From positions 1 to 32,908 of the forward strand of contig CAMNFS010000019.1 in the NCBI GenBank assembly GCA_946537255.1: a stretch of 32,908 bases of DNA. The letters are read 5' to 3'. Below, piece by piece: positions 737-31,706 of this stretch. The notes under the pieces are model-generated. The model saw nothing but the letters and a program-made list of their open reading frames with translations. It was not told the origin of the DNA and did no database searches. Position numbers and translations under genes: made by a program. The DNA comes from an uncultured Erysipelotrichaceae bacterium (GTDB lineage Bacteria; Bacillota_I; Bacilli_A; Erysipelotrichales; Erysipelotrichaceae). How positions within the stretch are numbered: the first letter of the stretch is position 1; each line of letters begins with the position of its first letter.

Positions 737-3700
737 TTGAAAAGAAAAAGTGTTTTAAGGACATCCATTCAGCTGTTTCTTTCACTGCTTCTTGCGCTTC
801 CTCAGGGAATGAATGTATTTGCGGAAGAAACAGAGAACACTGAGGAAACAGAGATGTCAGAAACCTCTCTGGAAGTGGAGGATCCGGAAGTCAGTGATCC
901 TGAACCTTCTGAAACCATTGCGCCGGAAGAAACGGAAAACGATCCGGCTGAGGCAGAAGGTGAGATCGAAGAAACTGAAGAAGTGGAAGAAACCGATTCC
1001 GTAAGGGACGGGGAGGAAGAGAAGGCTGAAGTCAGTCTGATTCTCTCTCCTTTGGAAGCACACCTTCATGTGGGTGAAACCCAGGCTTTCTTAGCGGAGA
1101 TCACCGGGGCTGATGAAGGGACGGAAATCATCTGGACTTCAGATCATCCTGAGATTCTTTCCGTGGATGCAGAGGGCATGGCAACAGCGCTTCAGAAGGG
1201 AAGCGCATCCGTGCGGGCAGCGCTTGCGGATGGAAGTGTCTACGCGGAAGCTTCGGTAACGATCCAGGAAAAGATACCAGGTCAGATTGAGTTTGCAGAG
1301 AGCAGCTATGAGGTAATGGAAGGAGATACGGTTACCGTATCCTATGAACTGACAGGCGGCAAATCCTCTGATATTCACTGGACCGTCAGTGATCCTTCCG
1401 TGATCGAAATCAGTACGGATAAGGAAGGGGAAGTCTCTATCAAAGGCCTGCAGTCCGGTGTTGCGGAAGTTCAGGCGGAAATCGACGGCATTCTCAGCTT
1501 GTTCGGGGTTGTTGTTCTTGCGAAGACGAAGGAATATCAGGAAGAATATACCTCTCTTGCATCGGGAAGTACGATCACCGGATACTATTCCGTTAGATTC
1601 GGACAGAGCGAAGCGAGATCCCTTGCGGAACAGGTCAACAACTACCGTCTGAATTCAGCTCATATGTCCACTCTGGTATATGACTACCGGATTGAGGAAT
1701 ACGCGATGCAGCTGGCAGCGGAGTCCGTGCTTGATTTTTCCGCAACCCGGCCGGATGGAAGCGCCTGGTATTCTGTTTTCGATTATTCCATCTACGGCTA
1801 CCATACCAGTACCAACCTGAATGAGAATCTGTTTGCCGGCAACGGCGGCAGTCTCGGTACCGCCACTCTCGCTTTTAACAAAATCATGTCGGATAATACG
1901 CTCCGTTCCAATTCTCTGAGAGCCCGCAACCGTTCCTTCGGTATCGGTCATGTCATCTATGATGAAACAGATTACTGGGTCATGCTGTTTTCCGATAATG
2001 CGGTCAGTACTTCTCAGACTTCTCCGATTGACGGAACGGATGATGTATCTGTCAGAATCCGCAGCGGACTTTACTCTTCGCCGAGTTTTCATGCAAGTAA
2101 ATCCGTTCTTAAGGTCAATGTCAATAAAAAAGCCGCGGTGCCTTCCGTCACCGGAACGGTCAAGGTGAAACTGGGCGGAAACAGAACGGATATTAATTTT
2201 TCCGGTTATACGAATTCCTGGGCGCTGGATCATGTCGGAGTGAAATATGCGGAACTGATCAGGGAAGGGAATACCCGCAAGGTTGCGGCCGGTCCTCTGC
2301 CGAACAATGATGAAGTGGCATATCTCATAGACACTGTTTCTTTCAATGGCAGTCATTATGACGTCAAGGTTCAGCTGAGAGTCATTCAGCCGGTGGAAAG
2401 GGTGGAAGTCTCTCCGCAAAGCATTGAGATCTATGCCGGAGATACCTTCCGGCTGACTGCCAGGGTCTATCCGGATAATGCTACGGATAAGAGTGTTTCC
2501 TGGACAAGCTCAAATACTGCAATTGCTTCCGTCAACTCCCAGGGTCTTGTCACTGGAAAAAAGGGCGGCAGAAACAAAATCACCGTTATCACCAAAGACG
2601 GCGGATTTAAGGCATCCTGTGATGTCACCGTCAAAATCAGAGCGGAAGGGCTCGCGTTTGAGATTGATGAACTGACCATGACGCCCGGTCTTACCGACAG
2701 GCTGGTTCCCGTGTTTACTCCGAAGAATACCACCGATCAGCGGGTAACCTTTACCTCTTCCGACAGTACAAAGGTGGAAGTTGTGAATAATGGAACCTAC
2801 GGAACGGTAAACGCAAAGAAACTGACGGATGACACACCGGTTATTATCACGATGACCTCTGTCGATAATCCGAGCCTTTCTGCAGAGCTTCCGGTTACAG
2901 TCAAGGATAAGGGGAAAGTCAGCAGACCGGTCGGATCCTATCTCTATGATTCCGAATATGAATTCCCCATGTTCGAATACGAACCGGACGACGAGATGAT
3001 CAACTATATCATTAAGGGTGATCTCATCAGCCTGCATACGAGCACCAGCGATGCCCGGCTCTATTACACGCTGGATGGTTCCACACCTTCTTCCTCCAGC
3101 AAAAGGTATACCGGCCCGTTCAAATTCAACGGCGGCTCCGTAACCCTCAAGGTGATTGCGGTCGGTCCGGATACGATGAAGAACAGTGATGTCGCGGAAT
3201 ACCGGATTGAAGAGGATGATGTGCCGACATGGGATATCCTTGATGAGGATCTTGAGGAAGCACTGCAGAAATACGGACAGATTCCAAATGGCCTGTGGGG
3301 AGCCGGCTTCGGAAAACCGCAGACCTATACCGGAACCAAGATCGTCTTCCCGGAATTCCGGGTATATTACCGGCACCGTCGTCTGACAATCAACCAGGAT
3401 TACAAAGTCAGTTACAAGAACAATGTGAATGTCAGTGCAGTCAATCCTTCCGTCATTATTACCGGAGCAGGTAACTATACAGGAAAAACCACGGTTCCGT
3501 TTGAGATCCAGCCGCTTCCGATCAATGAGGAAAACGGATTCAGTTATGAGAGTGAACTGTATCTTGTTCTTTCCAAAAAGGCCCTGAAGCCATCGCCGGT
3601 GATTCTCTGGAATGGCAAGAAGCTGAAGAACAATACGGATTATGTTGTTTCCTACAGCCGGAACAGGGAAGGGACCGATATCATCAGTGAAATCACAGAA

Positions 3701-5233
3701 CCGGGTGAATATTATGGAATCATTACCGGCGTAAAGAACTTCACCTCCGAAGAAGCGACCCGTCTGAGTGTTCCGATTCATGTGGAGAGGGATGTCGAAC
3801 TTCTCAGCAAGGCAACCATGAAGATTGCGGATGTGGAGTATACCGGTCAGCCGATCGATCCCGATCAGCTTGCGATTACGGTCAAGTCAGGGAAAAAGGT
3901 ACTTGAGAAGGGGACGGATTATGTTGTTCTGCCCCTGGATCCGGAAGAATGCACAGAGATCGGTACCGTGAGTCTTACCATCCGGGCAGTGGACGGCAGT
4001 GAGTACATGGGCGAAAAGACCGGCACCTTCAGAATCACCGGAAAATCGCTTTCCAAGGCTAAAATATTCTGCCTTGGAAACGCCGTGACATATACCGGTA
4101 CAACCTTTACTCTGAAGGATCTGTTTGTAAGCAATCCAAGCCGTCCGGATCTGAAGACGGTTACCCTCTATGACGGAAATGAAAAGCTCACGGAAGGCGT
4201 GGATTATGAAGCCGAAGTCAACGGTCAGAACAACGGAAAGGGAACAGTCCGCTTTGTTGGAAAAGGCAGATATACCGGGACGCTGTCCAAAGGATTCACC
4301 ATCCGTAAGAGAAATATCGCCCCCAGCGATCTTGTGATCTATGTATTTGACACATACTATTCCAAAACCGGCGCGCGTCCGGATGTCTATGTATTCCTGA
4401 AGACGGACAAGGACCATGGGTATGAAATTGATGAAGGGGTATATGGAATCTATCTTGAGGAGAATGAGGATTATACCCTGAAGATCACCAACAACAAGAA
4501 CGTCTATACGGATGAGGACTTCCGGACTCCGAAACCTCCGACAGTCACCATCACGATGAAGGGGAATTACTCCGGCAAGGCTGCTGAATACTTCCTGATT
4601 CAGCAGGGAGATCTCAGTGAACTGACAATCACCGCCGAGGATCTTGCGTATGCGGCAAAGAACAAAGGCGCGAAAAACTATGTCAAACCGGTCATTACGG
4701 GCGCGGACGGAAAAACTCTGACGCTGAACAAGGATTTTACTGTGAATTACTACTATGCTCAGGACGCAAAGGTCAACGGATCGGATACCTTCAATCGTGC
4801 GTATGGAACAGAAATCAGAGATACGGATGTCCCGGACGCGGGAACTGTCATTGCGGTTGAGGCAACCGGTATCGGCTCGTATTACGGAACGCTGAAGACA
4901 GAATACAGAATCGTTGACAAGACGAGCCGGATTTCCTCTTCCACTGTCAGGATCGATTATCGAAATGGAAAGAAGAACTACTTTGAATATACCGGCGCGC
5001 AGATTATTCCTTCCGAGGAAAACCTGTCGGTAACACTCAAGAAAGTTCCTCTGAGATACGGTGTGGATTATGAGATCCAGTCCATCACAAACAACATCAG
5101 GGCAGGCAAGGCCACCATGGTCATCCATGGTATCGGAATCTATGGCGGAACCAAGAAAGTGACGTTCAATATCGGCAAACAGCCGATGAATATCATCGAT
5201 ATCCTCAGAATTGCCCTGGGGCTTTCGTTCTGA
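737..5233 (+). CDS. Large secreted CAP-domain / Ig-like repeat surface protein
   Basis: A 1498-residue exported protein. Residues 1-30 form a signal peptide (positive start, Leu-rich core, FAEE cleavage region), followed by a very acidic Glu/Thr/Pro linker to about residue 95. Two Big_2-type Ig-like domains (about 99-178 and 183-260) precede a CAP/SCP-like domain (about 288-425, with VNNYR, an ATLAFN segment and a WVMLFSDNA end). More Big_2 domains follow at about 551-632 and 636-723, then a chitobiase-C-terminal-like module (about 757-825, YYTLDGSTP). The rest (about 842-1485) is seven units, each closing on a Gly-x-Tyr-x-Gly...Phe-x-Ile pattern such as YTGKTTVPFEI. No LPxTG motif or C-terminal anchor with a basic tail is seen; the protein ends in a short hydrophobic helix (IIDILRIALGLSF). 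TTG or GTG starts are not needed: the frame opens at TTG 737, preceded by GGAAAGGAGAA. The role is inferred as adhesion or cell-surface interaction; the CAP activity is unknown. Confidence 0.85.
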   Translation: MKRKSVLRTSIQLFLSLLLALPQGMNVFAEETENTEETEMSETSLEVEDPEVSDPEPSETIAPEETENDPAEAEGEIEETEEVEETDSVRDGEEEKAEVSLILSPLEAHLHVGETQAFLAEITGADEGTEIIWTSDHPEILSVDAEGMATALQKGSASVRAALADGSVYAEASVTIQEKIPGQIEFAESSYEVMEGDTVTVSYELTGGKSSDIHWTVSDPSVIEISTDKEGEVSIKGLQSGVAEVQAEIDGILSLFGVVVLAKTKEYQEEYTSLASGSTITGYYSVRFGQSEARSLAEQVNNYRLNSAHMSTLVYDYRIEEYAMQLAAESVLDFSATRPDGSAWYSVFDYSIYGYHTSTNLNENLFAGNGGSLGTATLAFNKIMSDNTLRSNSLRARNRSFGIGHVIYDETDYWVMLFSDNAVSTSQTSPIDGTDDVSVRIRSGLYSSPSFHASKSVLKVNVNKKAAVPSVTGTVKVKLGGNRTDINFSGYTNSWALDHVGVKYAELIREGNTRKVAAGPLPNNDEVAYLIDTVSFNGSHYDVKVQLRVIQPVERVEVSPQSIEIYAGDTFRLTARVYPDNATDKSVSWTSSNTAIASVNSQGLVTGKKGGRNKITVITKDGGFKASCDVTVKIRAEGLAFEIDELTMTPGLTDRLVPVFTPKNTTDQRVTFTSSDSTKVEVVNNGTYGTVNAKKLTDDTPVIITMTSVDNPSLSAELPVTVKDKGKVSRPVGSYLYDSEYEFPMFEYEPDDEMINYIIKGDLISLHTSTSDARLYYTLDGSTPSSSSKRYTGPFKFNGGSVTLKVIAVGPDTMKNSDVAEYRIEEDDVPTWDILDEDLEEALQKYGQIPNGLWGAGFGKPQTYTGTKIVFPEFRVYYRHRRLTINQDYKVSYKNNVNVSAVNPSVIITGAGNYTGKTTVPFEIQPLPINEENGFSYESELYLVLSKKALKPSPVILWNGKKLKNNTDYVVSYSRNREGTDIISEITEPGEYYGIITGVKNFTSEEATRLSVPIHVERDVELLSKATMKIADVEYTGQPIDPDQLAITVKSGKKVLEKGTDYVVLPLDPEECTEIGTVSLTIRAVDGSEYMGEKTGTFRITGKSLSKAKIFCLGNAVTYTGTTFTLKDLFVSNPSRPDLKTVTLYDGNEKLTEGVDYEAEVNGQNNGKGTVRFVGKGRYTGTLSKGFTIRKRNIAPSDLVIYVFDTYYSKTGARPDVYVFLKTDKDHGYEIDEGVYGIYLEENEDYTLKITNNKNVYTDEDFRTPKPPTVTITMKGNYSGKAAEYFLIQQGDLSELTITAEDLAYAAKNKGAKNYVKPVITGADGKTLTLNKDFTVNYYYAQDAKVNGSDTFNRAYGTEIRDTDVPDAGTVIAVEATGIGSYYGTLKTEYRIVDKTSRISSSTVRIDYRNGKKNYFEYTGAQIIPSEENLSVTLKKVPLRYGVDYEIQSITNNIRAGKATMVIHGIGIYGGTKKVTFNIGKQPMNIIDILRIALGLSF

Positions 5234-10619: not shown

Positions 10620-12038
10620 ATGAAACCATGGATTGTCAGAATCGGTGACAGAAAATACCGTATAGAACCGGCTGGACAGATCACTGTCATTCTCGTCGGA
10701 ATATTGATACTGGCGCTGCTTGCTTCCCTGTTATTTGCGGGAAAGGGTAAAAAAAAGGAGGAGAATCCTGATAAAAGCCCGGAGCCAAGCGCTCAGGCGG
10801 ACGCCACTCCGGAGGCTACCCTGGATCCCAAAAAATATGAGGGAACAATCCTTGCGGAGACAGCGGATGCCGGCATCTCCTATATTGAAAACACGCTGTT
10901 TCTGGGAGATTCCAATACTGCCCGCTTCCTGAAGGTGATCAATCCGGAAACGAAAAAAACCTATTCATTCCGGGAAAATACAATCGGTGTGGTAGGCATG
11001 GGGATCGATGGGATTTCCACACTTCCATGCATGGATTTTTCCACCGGCAGATACACCATGCCGAAATCCGTCAGTATCCTTCAGCCGGAACGGGTGATCA
11101 TAACGATGGGAACGAACAATCTTTCCGGAGAAAACACGGATTATACCGGCTTCATTGAACGGTATACCGCGCAGATCAAAGCGATTCAGAGTGCCTATCC
11201 ATCCGTGGATATCATTGTGAATTCCATTCCTCCGATTGCCAGAAACACTTCTTACTACAACGTGAAGATGAAACAGATTGATGCCTATAACAAAGGGATC
11301 GCTGAGATGTGTGAGAAGAACGGCTGGAAGTATCTGAATTCCTCAGAGGCGCTGATTGATTCTTCTACGGGGTATGCAAAGAGCGGATATATGGTTTCGG
11401 ACGGCCTTCACCTTGCTCAGCAGGGACTGACTGCTCTGTTTGACTATATCCGTACCCATGCATGGATTACGGATGATGACCGGCCCAAGCCATTGGCCGC
11501 AATTCCGAACATTATCGGAGTACCGGATGGTCTGATCCGCACGGATCCGCTGACTTCGGAAGAATACAAGGAAGATCCTTCGACTGCCGAAACGGAGGCG
11601 ACAGCCATTCCGGAAATCACTCCGACGCCAACTCCATCCGCAAGCCCTCTGGCTACGGCGAGCACAGTGCCCGAACAGCCTTCGAATTATAAGACCGCAG
11701 AGGCGTGTCGTCTGGCAGGATATGTCTGGTCCGACCTTAGCGGAAGGTGCTTCCTGAATGAGGAGGAGATGAAGAAGACAGAATCCCAGCTGCGCCAGCG
11801 TGCGTGCCTTGCCAAAGCGGATCAGGGCTATGTCTGGGATGAGGAAACACAGTCCTGTATCCAGAATGAGATGCCACAACCGACGGAGGAGACTCAGCCG
11901 ACTCCGGAGACTCCTGAGGAGCCAAGTGAAACAACCGTACCGGAGTCTGAGGAGGAACCGGATCAGCCGCAGGAGCCTTCTGACGGGGGAGAAACACCGC
12001 AGGAAGACGCATCTTCTGTGACAGAAACATCAGAATGA
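10620..12038 (+). CDS. Membrane-anchored SGNH/GDSL hydrolase with duplicated Cys tail
   Basis: A 472-residue protein. A short cytoplasmic start is followed by one membrane helix (about residues 20-40) and a Lys/Pro/Glu linker, then an SGNH hydrolase domain on the outer side (about 85-290). Block I is GDSN with the nucleophile Ser98, block III is GTNN (164-167, Asn166 oxyanion residue) and block V is DGLH with Asp261 and His264. Related enzymes remove acetyl groups from wall or exopolymer glycans, which is an inference here. The tail (about 310-472) is Pro/Thr/Glu rich and contains two similar two-cysteine modules, Cys363-Cys377 and Cys396-Cys413, each with AC...GYVW...C. The ATG at 10620 follows AAGGAGA at 10602-10608, with 11 bases between. 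A possible -10 (TAAAAT, 10558-10563) lies upstream. Confidence 0.85.
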   Translation: MKPWIVRIGDRKYRIEPAGQITVILVGILILALLASLLFAGKGKKKEENPDKSPEPSAQADATPEATLDPKKYEGTILAETADAGISYIENTLFLGDSNTARFLKVINPETKKTYSFRENTIGVVGMGIDGISTLPCMDFSTGRYTMPKSVSILQPERVIITMGTNNLSGENTDYTGFIERYTAQIKAIQSAYPSVDIIVNSIPPIARNTSYYNVKMKQIDAYNKGIAEMCEKNGWKYLNSSEALIDSSTGYAKSGYMVSDGLHLAQQGLTALFDYIRTHAWITDDDRPKPLAAIPNIIGVPDGLIRTDPLTSEEYKEDPSTAETEATAIPEITPTPTPSASPLATASTVPEQPSNYKTAEACRLAGYVWSDLSGRCFLNEEEMKKTESQLRQRACLAKADQGYVWDEETQSCIQNEMPQPTEETQPTPETPEEPSETTVPESEEEPDQPQEPSDGGETPQEDASSVTETSE

Positions 12039-28901: not shown

Positions 28902-31706
28902 TCAATGGGTTTCCGCAGCTTCCGGCGAAGCTTCGGGTGTGGATTCCTGAGCCTGCGGGGATTCCTCTGGTTTTTCCTTTGGCTCTTCTTCCGGTTTTTC
29001 TTCCGGTTCGGGATCTTTGGCACTCTTTGCGGTCCTGAAAGTCTCGCAGAGTTCGTTGGATGTACTGCCGGAATTCTCATAGGCATAGAATCCGCAGGCT
29101 TCATAGGTGGTATTCGGCTCAAGATCCAGATCACTTTCGAAATCGATTTCCTCTTCGCTCGTGATTTCCTCAATCACGGTCCCGCCCTTTGAAATACGGG
29201 CTTTGTAGCGGATCGGGCCGAAAACCCAGCTCCAGTCAAACAGACGCTTGCCGGTTGCGGCGACAAGTACATTCCCGTTTGCGTCCTTCAGGGAGATGTC
29301 CATATCTCCCTCTGCCGCAGTCAGCTTGTCGGGATCAGGATATTCCGACCATTCCAGACGGACCTTTCCATCTTCGAAATCTGCTTCAAAGTGCTGCAGA
29401 CTCTCCGGCTTGTCGGAGACCTCCGGACTTACGAGCCTTGCGTAATCACTTTTGATGAGACCGGTGGTAATCAGACTGGAATCCATCCCGTCAACCGGCG
29501 AGGCATACGGCCAGGTGCCGAGGATATGGGTAATACTTGAGATGCCTTCCGGCATGGGCAGATCGGCGGGAACGCTGTCATGATGGACCGCGTCAAGAAT
29601 CAGTGAGCAGATGTTGCCGGGAATATTCAGCTTTGATTTCTCATTGGAGAAGTAGGTGTCCTTGTCCTTGACGCCTTTTTCATATCCGACCCAGGTGGTA
29701 ATCGTATACTGACTGGTATCACAGACCATCCATTTATCCTTGGATGCGCCCTGAGGAATGTTGTACTGGAGACCCTCATCTCCCCAGTCGGAAGTTCCGG
29801 TCTTTCCAAAGGTCTGATAGTCCCGCTTGAGGATATCAAGATAGTTGAATACGCCGCCATGTACCGCGGTGTACATCAGCTGGGCCGCAAGGTAGGAAGC
29901 CTGAGGGGAAAGAACATTGGTAGCGTCATAGCTCGGAGTCAGCGGTTCATTGACGCCGTTGCGGAAGCTGATTTTTGAGATGGTATGGGGACGGATGTAA
30001 TTGCCGCCGTTCATCAGGATGGCATGAGCCGCCATCAGTTCTTCGCAGGAAGAGGTGAAGTTGCTGCCGCCGATCGCAAACCCGATGTCGAAGTTGTCAT
30101 AGTTGACCTGGGAAAATCCGAGGCTGTTGATGAAGGTGACCACTGTATTCCATCCGGCGGTATTGATGACATCCTGAAGGGCCTGAATGGCCGGGGTGTT
30201 GAGGGACGCGGAAATGGCGTAGGAGAGGGTGACTTCTCCGTTATATACGCCGTTGGCGTTTTTGATGATGAGATCCGTGCCCTGATAGGAAATCGGTTTG
30301 TCGGTTACGACATGACTGGTCGCCCAGCCGAGATACTCAAACGCGAGGGCGTAATCCAGGAACGGCTTGACGCTGGATCCCGGCTGCTTGTACTGATCGG
30401 TTGCGTGATTCAGAAGCATGGATCCGCCGCGGCCATAGTTTCTTCCGCCGCCGATCCCGACTATTTCACCGGTCTGATTGTTCTCGGCAATCATGCCGAT
30501 TTCCATGAGATCATCCGGAAAGATGACCTGTTCATATTTTTCCGACTGAATTCCGTCCATCACCGTCTGTACTTCCGGATCCATGTAGGTATAGATATCC
30601 ATTGCCACGGAAAGGGGATCCTGACCGCTGATGGAAGCGGCTTCCTCGATAACGGTATCGATATAGGACTGAAAGGCGTATGCTTCACCCGTCCCGCCTT
30701 TTCTCACGGAGGGATCGATCAGGGTGTCCTCCACCCGGACTGCTTTTGCGAGCCTGTATTCCTTTTCGGTGATGTAGCCATGGCGCACCATCAGTGAGAG
30801 AACCGTATTGCGCCGTTTCGTCGCGTTGTCCAGGAAGTTGTGGGGATCATAGGCGTAAGGGGCATTGATGACACCTGCCAGCATGGCTGCTTCCGGAAGA
30901 TTCAGTTCTCCGGCCGACTTGCCGTAATAGTATTCCGCTGCCTTCTGGATACCGCGGATATTGCCGGTACCTCCGAAATTCATCTTGTTCAGATACATTT
31001 CGAAGATTGCTTTTTTATTGGATTCCTTTTCCAGCTCCCGGGCCAGAGCAATCTGCTGGACCTTGTAGGCGATGTTGCGGGAAGCGGTAACTCCGGTTTC
31101 ATCATTCTGGAAGTATGTCAGCTTGACCAGCTGCATCGTGAATGTGGATCCGCCTGAAAGACCGCTTCTTCCTCTCAGCTTGTTCAGAACATTGTCGAGC
31201 GCTGATTTTGTGAAGCGGGGAAGATCAAAACCGTCGTGTCTGAAGTAGCGGCTGTCCTCCACCGCAAGAAAGGCGTCAATGACGGATTCGGAAACCTGAT
31301 CATAGGTGATGTTTTCTCTCAGCTGTGTTCCTACGTCAGCGATCAGGGTGCCGTTGCGATCATAGATATGCGAGCTTTCCGGAGAGAAGAAATCATCCAC
31401 AACAAGCTTCGGCTTGTTCTGAAGCATGTTTCCGATCATAAAAAGACCCGCGGCGCCGACAATCATTTCCATGCAGATCATGAAAATCAGAATAATCGTC
31501 CAGAGATTGCGTCGATTGACATGCCGGCTGGACGTTCTTCTGCGTCTGGCAGATCCTGATGGGGTGCGGGCTCTGCCTGCGGTTTTTGTTTTTGTTCTGG
31601 TTCTGCCGGTGCTGCGCCGTTTGGAAGAGGCGGATGCGCCTGTGCTTCTTTTTGCCGGGGAGGACTCCTGCCGGCGGCGTTTTACCGGTTTTTCTGTTTC
31701 ACTCAT
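28902..31706 (-). CDS. ponA: Class A penicillin-binding protein (PBP1A)
   Basis: A 934-residue bifunctional peptidoglycan synthase. Residues 1-67 form a very basic cytoplasmic tail (Arg/Lys/Ser/Thr) and about 68-92 a membrane anchor. The glycosyltransferase domain has EDSRYFRHDG with catalytic Glu150, GGSTFTMQL (185-193) and EMYLN. The transpeptidase domain has SSVK with Ser444, SLN (501-503) and KTGTS (635-639). A C-terminal part (about 770-890) contains a beta-rich Fn3-like domain and a Pro/Glu-rich tail. It polymerises and crosslinks the wall at the outer face. It overlaps recU by four bases (ATGA) and is co-transcribed with it. Two downstream features, the basic tail and the adjacent gpsB gene, suggest GpsB contact. 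Confidence 0.96.
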   Translation of the reverse strand: MSETEKPVKRRRQESSPAKRSTGASASSKRRSTGRTRTKTKTAGRARTPSGSARRRRTSSRHVNRRNLWTIILIFMICMEMIVGAAGLFMIGNMLQNKPKLVVDDFFSPESSHIYDRNGTLIADVGTQLRENITYDQVSESVIDAFLAVEDSRYFRHDGFDLPRFTKSALDNVLNKLRGRSGLSGGSTFTMQLVKLTYFQNDETGVTASRNIAYKVQQIALARELEKESNKKAIFEMYLNKMNFGGTGNIRGIQKAAEYYYGKSAGELNLPEAAMLAGVINAPYAYDPHNFLDNATKRRNTVLSLMVRHGYITEKEYRLAKAVRVEDTLIDPSVRKGGTGEAYAFQSYIDTVIEEAASISGQDPLSVAMDIYTYMDPEVQTVMDGIQSEKYEQVIFPDDLMEIGMIAENNQTGEIVGIGGGRNYGRGGSMLLNHATDQYKQPGSSVKPFLDYALAFEYLGWATSHVVTDKPISYQGTDLIIKNANGVYNGEVTLSYAISASLNTPAIQALQDVINTAGWNTVVTFINSLGFSQVNYDNFDIGFAIGGSNFTSSCEELMAAHAILMNGGNYIRPHTISKISFRNGVNEPLTPSYDATNVLSPQASYLAAQLMYTAVHGGVFNYLDILKRDYQTFGKTGTSDWGDEGLQYNIPQGASKDKWMVCDTSQYTITTWVGYEKGVKDKDTYFSNEKSKLNIPGNICSLILDAVHHDSVPADLPMPEGISSITHILGTWPYASPVDGMDSSLITTGLIKSDYARLVSPEVSDKPESLQHFEADFEDGKVRLEWSEYPDPDKLTAAEGDMDISLKDANGNVLVAATGKRLFDWSWVFGPIRYKARISKGGTVIEEITSEEEIDFESDLDLEPNTTYEACGFYAYENSGSTSNELCETFRTAKSAKDPEPEEKPEEEPKEKPEESPQAQESTPEASPEAAETH

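Follow-up and report, generated by a model that had tools for sequence, protein, structure and literature searches.

The SGNH hydrolase and its tail

The window, by which we mean the whole 32,908-nucleotide stretch analysed here, encodes an SGNH/GDSL hydrolase with two small two-cysteine units in its tail. The gene and its features are as follows:

10620–12038, + strand: SGNH/GDSL hydrolase, 472 aa, start codon ATG, with an N-terminal membrane anchor, a catalytic domain and a module-bearing tail
10668–10742, + strand: hydrophobic helix, residues 17–41, a presumed signal anchor of inferred orientation (AlphaFold2 helix, sequence)
10851–11549, + strand: SGNH catalytic domain with its conserved skirt, residues 78–310 (invariant columns, fold matches)
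11586–11663, + strand: disordered Pro/Thr/Ser/Glu linker, residues 323–348 (AlphaFold2 pLDDT <50)
11691–11765, + strand: unit 1, residues 358–382, with helix 360–365 (Cys363) and hairpin 369–371/376–378 (Trp370, Cys377) (profile score 44.9 bits, AlphaFold2)
11760–11813, + strand: helix 381–398, which connects units 1 and 2 and bears Cys396 (AlphaFold2)
11793–11870, + strand: unit 2, residues 392–417, with Cys396 and hairpin 404–407/412–415 (Trp406, Cys413) (38.2 bits with profile A4, which includes unit 2 itself; AlphaFold2)
11913–12035, + strand: disordered Pro/Glu-rich C-terminus, residues 432–472 (AlphaFold2, mostly pLDDT <50)

The protein matches Lipase_GDSL_2 above the Pfam cut-off (E 5.9e-13). 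Forty aligned SGNH sequences share the invariant stretches G96-D97-S98-N99, G164-T165-N166 and D261-x-x-H264 (G262 is also invariant); we take GDS to be SGNH block I, G-x-N block III and D-x-x-H block V. Foldseek finds the SGNH fold in the catalytic domain, with E values of 7.4e-8 to 7pzh and 1.1e-7 to 2hsj. The domain is nearest to sialate O-acetylesterases (7pzh), and the peptidoglycan O-acetylesterase 4k3u appears at rank 9. The predicted enzyme is probably a glycan O-acetylesterase. It has its catalytic fold and blocks in common with the SGNH/GDSL carbohydrate O-acetylesterases acting on sialate (7pzh/6njc) and peptidoglycan (4k3u), but unlike them it has a membrane anchor and a module-bearing tail. 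Its six cysteines are at residues 137, 231, 363, 377, 396 and 413, the last four of them in the tail.

Two further proteins of the window lack such modules. A class A PBP (28902–31706, − strand; Transgly and Transpeptidase domains) ends in a Glu/Pro-rich tail; similar PBP-like proteins of three other genomes (G018, by Pfam; G027 and G121, by eye) bear two-Cys modules at that position. A large exported-looking protein (737–5233, + strand) contains Big_2, CHB_HEX_C_1 and, just over the cut-off, CAP.

Sequence and predicted structure of the two units

Unit 1 is ACRLAGYVWSDLSGRCFLNE and unit 2 is ACLAKADQGYVWDEETQSCIQNE. The tail cysteines, Cys363/377 and Cys396/413, are exactly where the sequence-only reading had placed them, with codons within 11706–11858. 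That reading also gave the units a shared motif ending in C-x-N-E; the duplication is real, but the C-terminal part of the motif reads C-x-x-N-E. The gap from Cys to Gly is 3 residues in unit 1 versus 6 in unit 2. Both units fit the GYVW-type motif, C-x(4-8)-[YWFG]-x-W-x6-C, in which Cys, Trp and Cys are invariant across 22 aligned units.

The local alignment of unit 1 with unit 2 scores 43, a value reached at the same places by 14 of 20,000 shuffles of the tail residues, with windows picked post hoc. A 13-row profile that contains LCP proteins and G033:C301 but no SGNH sequence scores unit 1 at 26.0 bits; the best shuffled tail scored 9.9 bits (20,000 shuffles, 13,239 scored). The same profile scores unit 2 at only 2.5 bits. 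We assign unit 2 to the family because it resembles unit 1, has an orthologue and scores with profile A4, of which it is itself a member.

The nearest orthologue (L097) comes from a Solobacterium sp. MAG labelled sheep duodenum and apparently lies on the same contig as G033:C303. It is identical at 191 of 233 core positions and 77 of 151 tail positions, and keeps all four cysteines, both tryptophans and both tyrosines of the two units. Loss of the cysteines in close homologues, which would have spoken against a module, is thus not seen in this protein, but more distant orthologues replace the unit or lack it. The earlier view of a genuine duplicated unit placed outside the catalytic domain is borne out.

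AlphaFold2 models the full protein (40 sequences) with a mean pLDDT of 82.6. Means over ten-residue blocks are 94–96 across residues 361–410, 83 at 351–360 and 86 at 411–420. A separate job on the 86-residue tail alone (three sequences) returned the same elements with pLDDT 84–90 over the units. The predicted order is helix, hairpin, long helix, hairpin, with the units set between disordered linkers. Each unit had been expected to form a small disulfide loop; the cysteines do come in pairs, but the model, which covers the window's two units only, predicts more than a loop, namely a helix plus a beta-hairpin per unit. Judging from strand limits rather than coordinates, Trp370 would be opposite Cys377 and Trp406 opposite Cys413. 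Since the first cysteine of each unit is in the preceding helix and the tryptophan is opposite the second, one disulfide per unit would be natural. Most likely, a single bond staples each unit, from the helix cysteine to the strand-2 cysteine, with the conserved tryptophan as core. This tryptophan may be structural instead of a binding residue.

Comparison with known domains

In keeping with the sequence-only reading, which did not recognise a named domain, the unit belongs to none in the libraries searched: there is no Pfam match at cut-off and no significant NCBIfam match. The unit is covered by no curated family in either collection and is apparently undescribed. Three sub-threshold Pfam candidates for the tail were rejected: RANK_CRD_2 (PF18278; E 0.0056, 17.3 bits against a cut-off of 26.8), the PSI/plexin repeat (PF01437; E 0.0093, 16.7 bits against 23.1) and the chitin-binding CBM_14 (PF01607; E 0.1, 13.2 bits against 22.1). 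CW_binding_1 (PF01473) was likewise rejected, with no match in the tail at E<=10 nor in ten host or candidate proteins at E<=0.1. The tail has no significant sequence relative in the PDB (best E 0.48) and no significant fold match there by Foldseek, and VIA-align gave no Z >=2 among 11 chains aligned. No relative of the 86-aa tail was found in plasmid and phage records at E<=0.1. A degenerate DNA pattern run over the source genome was too loose to be informative (1268 and 1438 matches). A literature search that reached few subscription journals found the unit motif strings in no publication, and likewise nothing on a link to the variant surface glycoprotein domain discussed below or on Erysipelotrichaceae surface proteins.

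For the tail, Foldseek ranks a trypanosome variant surface glycoprotein first (5m4t, C-terminal domain), with an rmsd of 0.5 and 29% identity over 24 columns; at E 1.9 and probability 0.75, the match is not significant, and we retain it merely as a lead. In trypanosomes this small domain of a surface protein lies close to the anchor. Its source is eukaryotic, unlike the bacterial tail, and any likeness is probably convergent.

The nearest working analogue is the choline-binding repeat (CW_binding_1) of pneumococcal wall hydrolases, and the two-Cys units may, by analogy, work likewise. These repeats are described as tandem, aromatic beta-hairpin units of ∼20 residues on many surface proteins, usually C-terminal, sometimes after a Pro-rich linker and variable in number (PMC4929436). 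Both systems consist of small aromatic hairpin units in tandem. However, each two-Cys unit has a cysteine pair and a helix, no link to choline is known, and the two-unit AlphaFold2 model shows no solenoid. Another comparable system is that of LCP proteins extended at the C-terminus (LytR_C and others), but no two-Cys module is named in the part of its description available to us; in three LCP hosts, LytR_C was not among the Pfam matches at E<=0.1.

Distribution and hosts of the module family

The profile search for the unit elsewhere, which had been proposed as a check, places the family on several classes of envelope protein. The source genome (2.44 Mb, completeness 100) contains four GYVW-type units at E<=1, two in the SGNH protein and two in a second host, an 812-aa open frame with a LytR_cpsA_psr domain (E 8.9e-38) and a PASTA domain (Pfam). 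Profile A3 finds this type in eight of 70 genomes of the genus, source included (E<=0.01). Profile A4 finds it in 11 of 315 genomes and two of 79 genera of the order (E<=0.001), and in two of 392 genomes of a phylum sample, again including the source.

A second, shorter type, mostly C-x3-GG-x-W-x4-C, was searched within the order. Profile A5 matches 33 of 315 genomes and 11 of 79 genera at E<=0.01; the source genome has no match to this GG-x-W type at the same threshold. We treat the two types as one family because two LCP proteins (L042 of G023, L272 of G007) carry both, and on this sequence evidence they probably are one.

GYVW-type units are found on SGNH proteins of three genomes (the source, G000; G033; G022) and on LCP proteins of six (G000, by Pfam; G001, G007, G022, G023 and G033, by motif or by eye). 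Weaker matches occur in LCP proteins of another genus (G235, G237, G240; L266 of G235 by Pfam). Large surface proteins are hosts too. Four surface-protein ORFs of G003 (L057, L062, L065, L067) share a near-identical unit, C-Q-D-D-G-Y...G-Y-Y-W, directly followed by a PYTGD string, with a hydrophobic segment at the C-terminus. Similarly, G092 has three surface ORFs with the unit; two have later hydrophobic segments, and the third (L058) ends soon after without one. A 293-aa open frame at a contig end in G033 has four tandem units and no Pfam match.

Hosts of the GG-x-W type, as identified by Pfam, are LCP (L244), class A PBP (L252, L248), an exported LRR_5 protein (L245), an HTH+RCC1+fn3 protein (L265) and a sigma70+NlpC/P60 ORF (L264; NlpC/P60 just below the cut-off). 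Additional hosts were classed as LCP or PBP proteins by a script or on inspection by eye. A lipoprotein-like ORF with this type (L271) has no Pfam match over the cut-off. The hosts elsewhere look extracytoplasmic, and in most of them a flexible tail bears the module at its C-terminal end. In the 1640-aa LRR protein (L245), inspection by eye finds a signal-peptide-like start and no other anchor in the last 290 residues; the modules are therefore likely the means of its retention.

Apparent exchange of tails between genes

Orthologous SGNH proteins end in different tails. GYVW units are present in G000, G033 and G022, and arrays of three to five GG-x-W units in G013, G008 and G072; other orthologues have, by eye, C-P-D-G units, EGF-like strings, PASTA-like plus zinc-ribbon-like units, or nothing. 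Conversely, unrelated proteins of one genome can share a tail. In G008, the SGNH (L019, C44), LCP (L244, C45) and LRR (L245, C100) proteins end in almost the same tail, with the same unit order. The SGNH and LCP tails are 89% identical in DNA over 371 nt in G008 and 93.5% over 215 nt in G013, versus about 75–78% for orthologous cores between these two genomes. Because tail identity exceeds that of the orthologous cores, the tails seem, from sequence comparison, to have been copied between unrelated genes. A protein tail that recurs almost unchanged on unrelated genes has the look of concerted evolution.

The individual units agree with this pattern. For 18 of 21 repeat units in G008 and G013, the nearest relative is outside the unit's own protein and within the same genome. 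The mean DNA distance between units is 0.196 for proteins of one genome (77 pairs) versus 0.251 for orthologues (35 pairs), five units of G072 being left out; DNA near-identity was examined in G008, G013 and G072 only.

Agreement in tail type between SGNH and LCP proteins was assessed over the six genomes with both tails located, and was reached by three of 720 permutations; it partly or largely follows clade. The genome's own LCP protein is the best match of the SGNH tail in three of the six (G033, G008, G013) but not in the source genome, where the SGNH units score 46.5 to their own LCP units versus 50.0 to those of G033. We therefore rejected the idea that every genome homogenises its tails: the own LCP is best in just three of six, and the association is partly by clade. 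In G022, a long Gln/Asp run closes the SGNH tail (L013), and a Gly-Ser-Glu repeat closes the LCP tail (L273).

SGNH relatives also occur in Gemmiger, which we take to be a lineage of another order, with 41–52% identity in the listed loci (e.g. L129, L137, L139, L146). By eye, their tails have zinc-ribbon-like CxxC units or Pro-rich or low-complexity sequence in place of the module. Relatives with other tails in this lineage suggest gene transfer or tail swapping beyond the family.

Proposed function and alternatives

We propose that the units are an exchangeable, lineage-specific extracellular micro-module of ∼25–33 residues for wall localisation, a reading of their function to which we give about even chances. 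In this proposal, the N-terminal helix would anchor the SGNH enzyme in the membrane and the flexible tail would extend into the wall. There the paired modules would attach to a wall polymer or a common partner, which would hold the LCP protein too, and SGNH and LCP enzymes would thereby be concentrated at one place. Counting against a wall tag, the unit is dispensable: of the 70 genomes of the genus, 62 have no match to the GYVW type, and cysteine is absent from 15 of the 68 SGNH tails that are unique and complete.

The main rival is that the units are structural spacers, stable knots that stiffen a long wall-crossing tail or protect it from proteases with no specific ligand. We regard this as possible, if rather unlikely. 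Unit type and number vary freely between species, orthologues place different fillers at the same position (a Gln-rich run, PASTA-like or zinc-ribbon-like units as judged by eye, or none), and the few invariant residues (Cys, Trp, Cys) resemble a core and not a binding surface, all as a spacer would allow. However, a mere spacer needs neither unit types common to unrelated wall enzymes nor their nearly identical DNA in two genomes, and the exported LRR protein bears modules with no other anchor in sight.

The modules might also be a by-product of recombination, in which gene ends rich in proline and repeats recombine and grow longer, carrying along modules that have no selected role. The high DNA identity of tails on unrelated genes, tandem arrays of five near-identical units and the patchy distribution are what such a process would leave. 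We consider it improbable nonetheless, given that the four cysteines, two tryptophans and two tyrosines were all kept relative to L097 while about half of the tail changed, and that AlphaFold2 predicts a confident, compact fold.

Cysteine pairing and oxidation

Tail cysteines were counted by hand across SGNH orthologues. The census covered 106 loci, 15 of them without a usable ORF by pattern, leaving 91 rows, of which 68 are unique and complete, with near-copies remaining (L116/L117, L021/L115). Fifteen of the 68 tails have no cysteine, 35 an even and 18 an odd number, so that 35 of 53 cysteine-bearing tails in the whole set are even. Within Solobacterium/Erysipelotrichaceae, 14 of 20 complete cysteine-bearing tails are even and six odd; three of these six (L021, L108, L115) bear zinc-ribbon-like units. 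Solobacterium-group tails hold up to 16 cysteines.

According to a recent study (PMC12453122, 2025), obligate anaerobes tend to keep cysteine out of the proteins they export, and even cysteine counts accompany DsbA plus DsbB/VKOR. Of the redox partners searched for (DsbB, VKOR and Thioredoxin_4), neither DsbB nor VKOR was found in any of 70 genomes of the genus, versus six and three of 14 control genomes. Thioredoxin_4 matches seven of the 70 genomes (six over the cut-off), including three GG-x-W carriers (G013, G089, G091) and none of the eight with a GYVW-type unit. The source genome encodes a lipoprotein-like protein (type judged by eye) with a thioredoxin stretch containing CGNC, below the Pfam cut-off. 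It also encodes a membrane ferredoxin-type protein (again typed by eye) with an exported-looking thioredoxin domain containing CTPC, over the cut-off (L277; G000:C46, − strand, 2457–4055), a candidate extracytoplasmic thiol-redox enzyme. On the + strand of that locus, at 1498–1827 and 1999–2307, two small ORFs of almost the same sequence each have a leader-like stretch that ends in a double glycine, and a CxxC; by eye, they resemble bacteriocin or modified-peptide precursors.

Disulfides within the units are likely. That the cysteines instead stay reduced, with the tails binding metal or sensing redox, would suit the missing DsbB and VKOR, the lack of Thioredoxin_4 in the GYVW-type genomes (though the three GG-x-W carriers have it), the reported avoidance of exported cysteine by obligate anaerobes (PMC12453122) and the CxxC zinc-ribbon-like units seen by eye in Gemmiger orthologues, but it is very improbable: one isolated pair per unit is too few for its own metal site, the pairs sit on the helix and strand of one small predicted fold, and the source genome encodes two exported-looking thioredoxin-like proteins.

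Implications for the envelope of the family

The wall-localisation reading extends to a broader conjecture, which we regard as doubtful: a lineage-specific addressing system. Members of one bacterial family would copy a two-Cys micro-module by recombination onto proteins that are otherwise unrelated (LCP ligases, class A PBPs, SGNH esterases and proteins that are exported), all of which would dock to the same wall polymer or partner. Clades or genomes would tend to have a module type in common, and the address would drift between species. If this is true, a module of ∼25 residues, so small that the usual searches for domains miss it, links the PBP, LCP and esterase steps of wall building, and does so in gut Firmicutes whose envelope has hardly been studied. 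Moreover, these bacteria, in which we found no DsbB or VKOR, export paired cysteines, and the units offer a small target on which the question of their oxidation can be tested.
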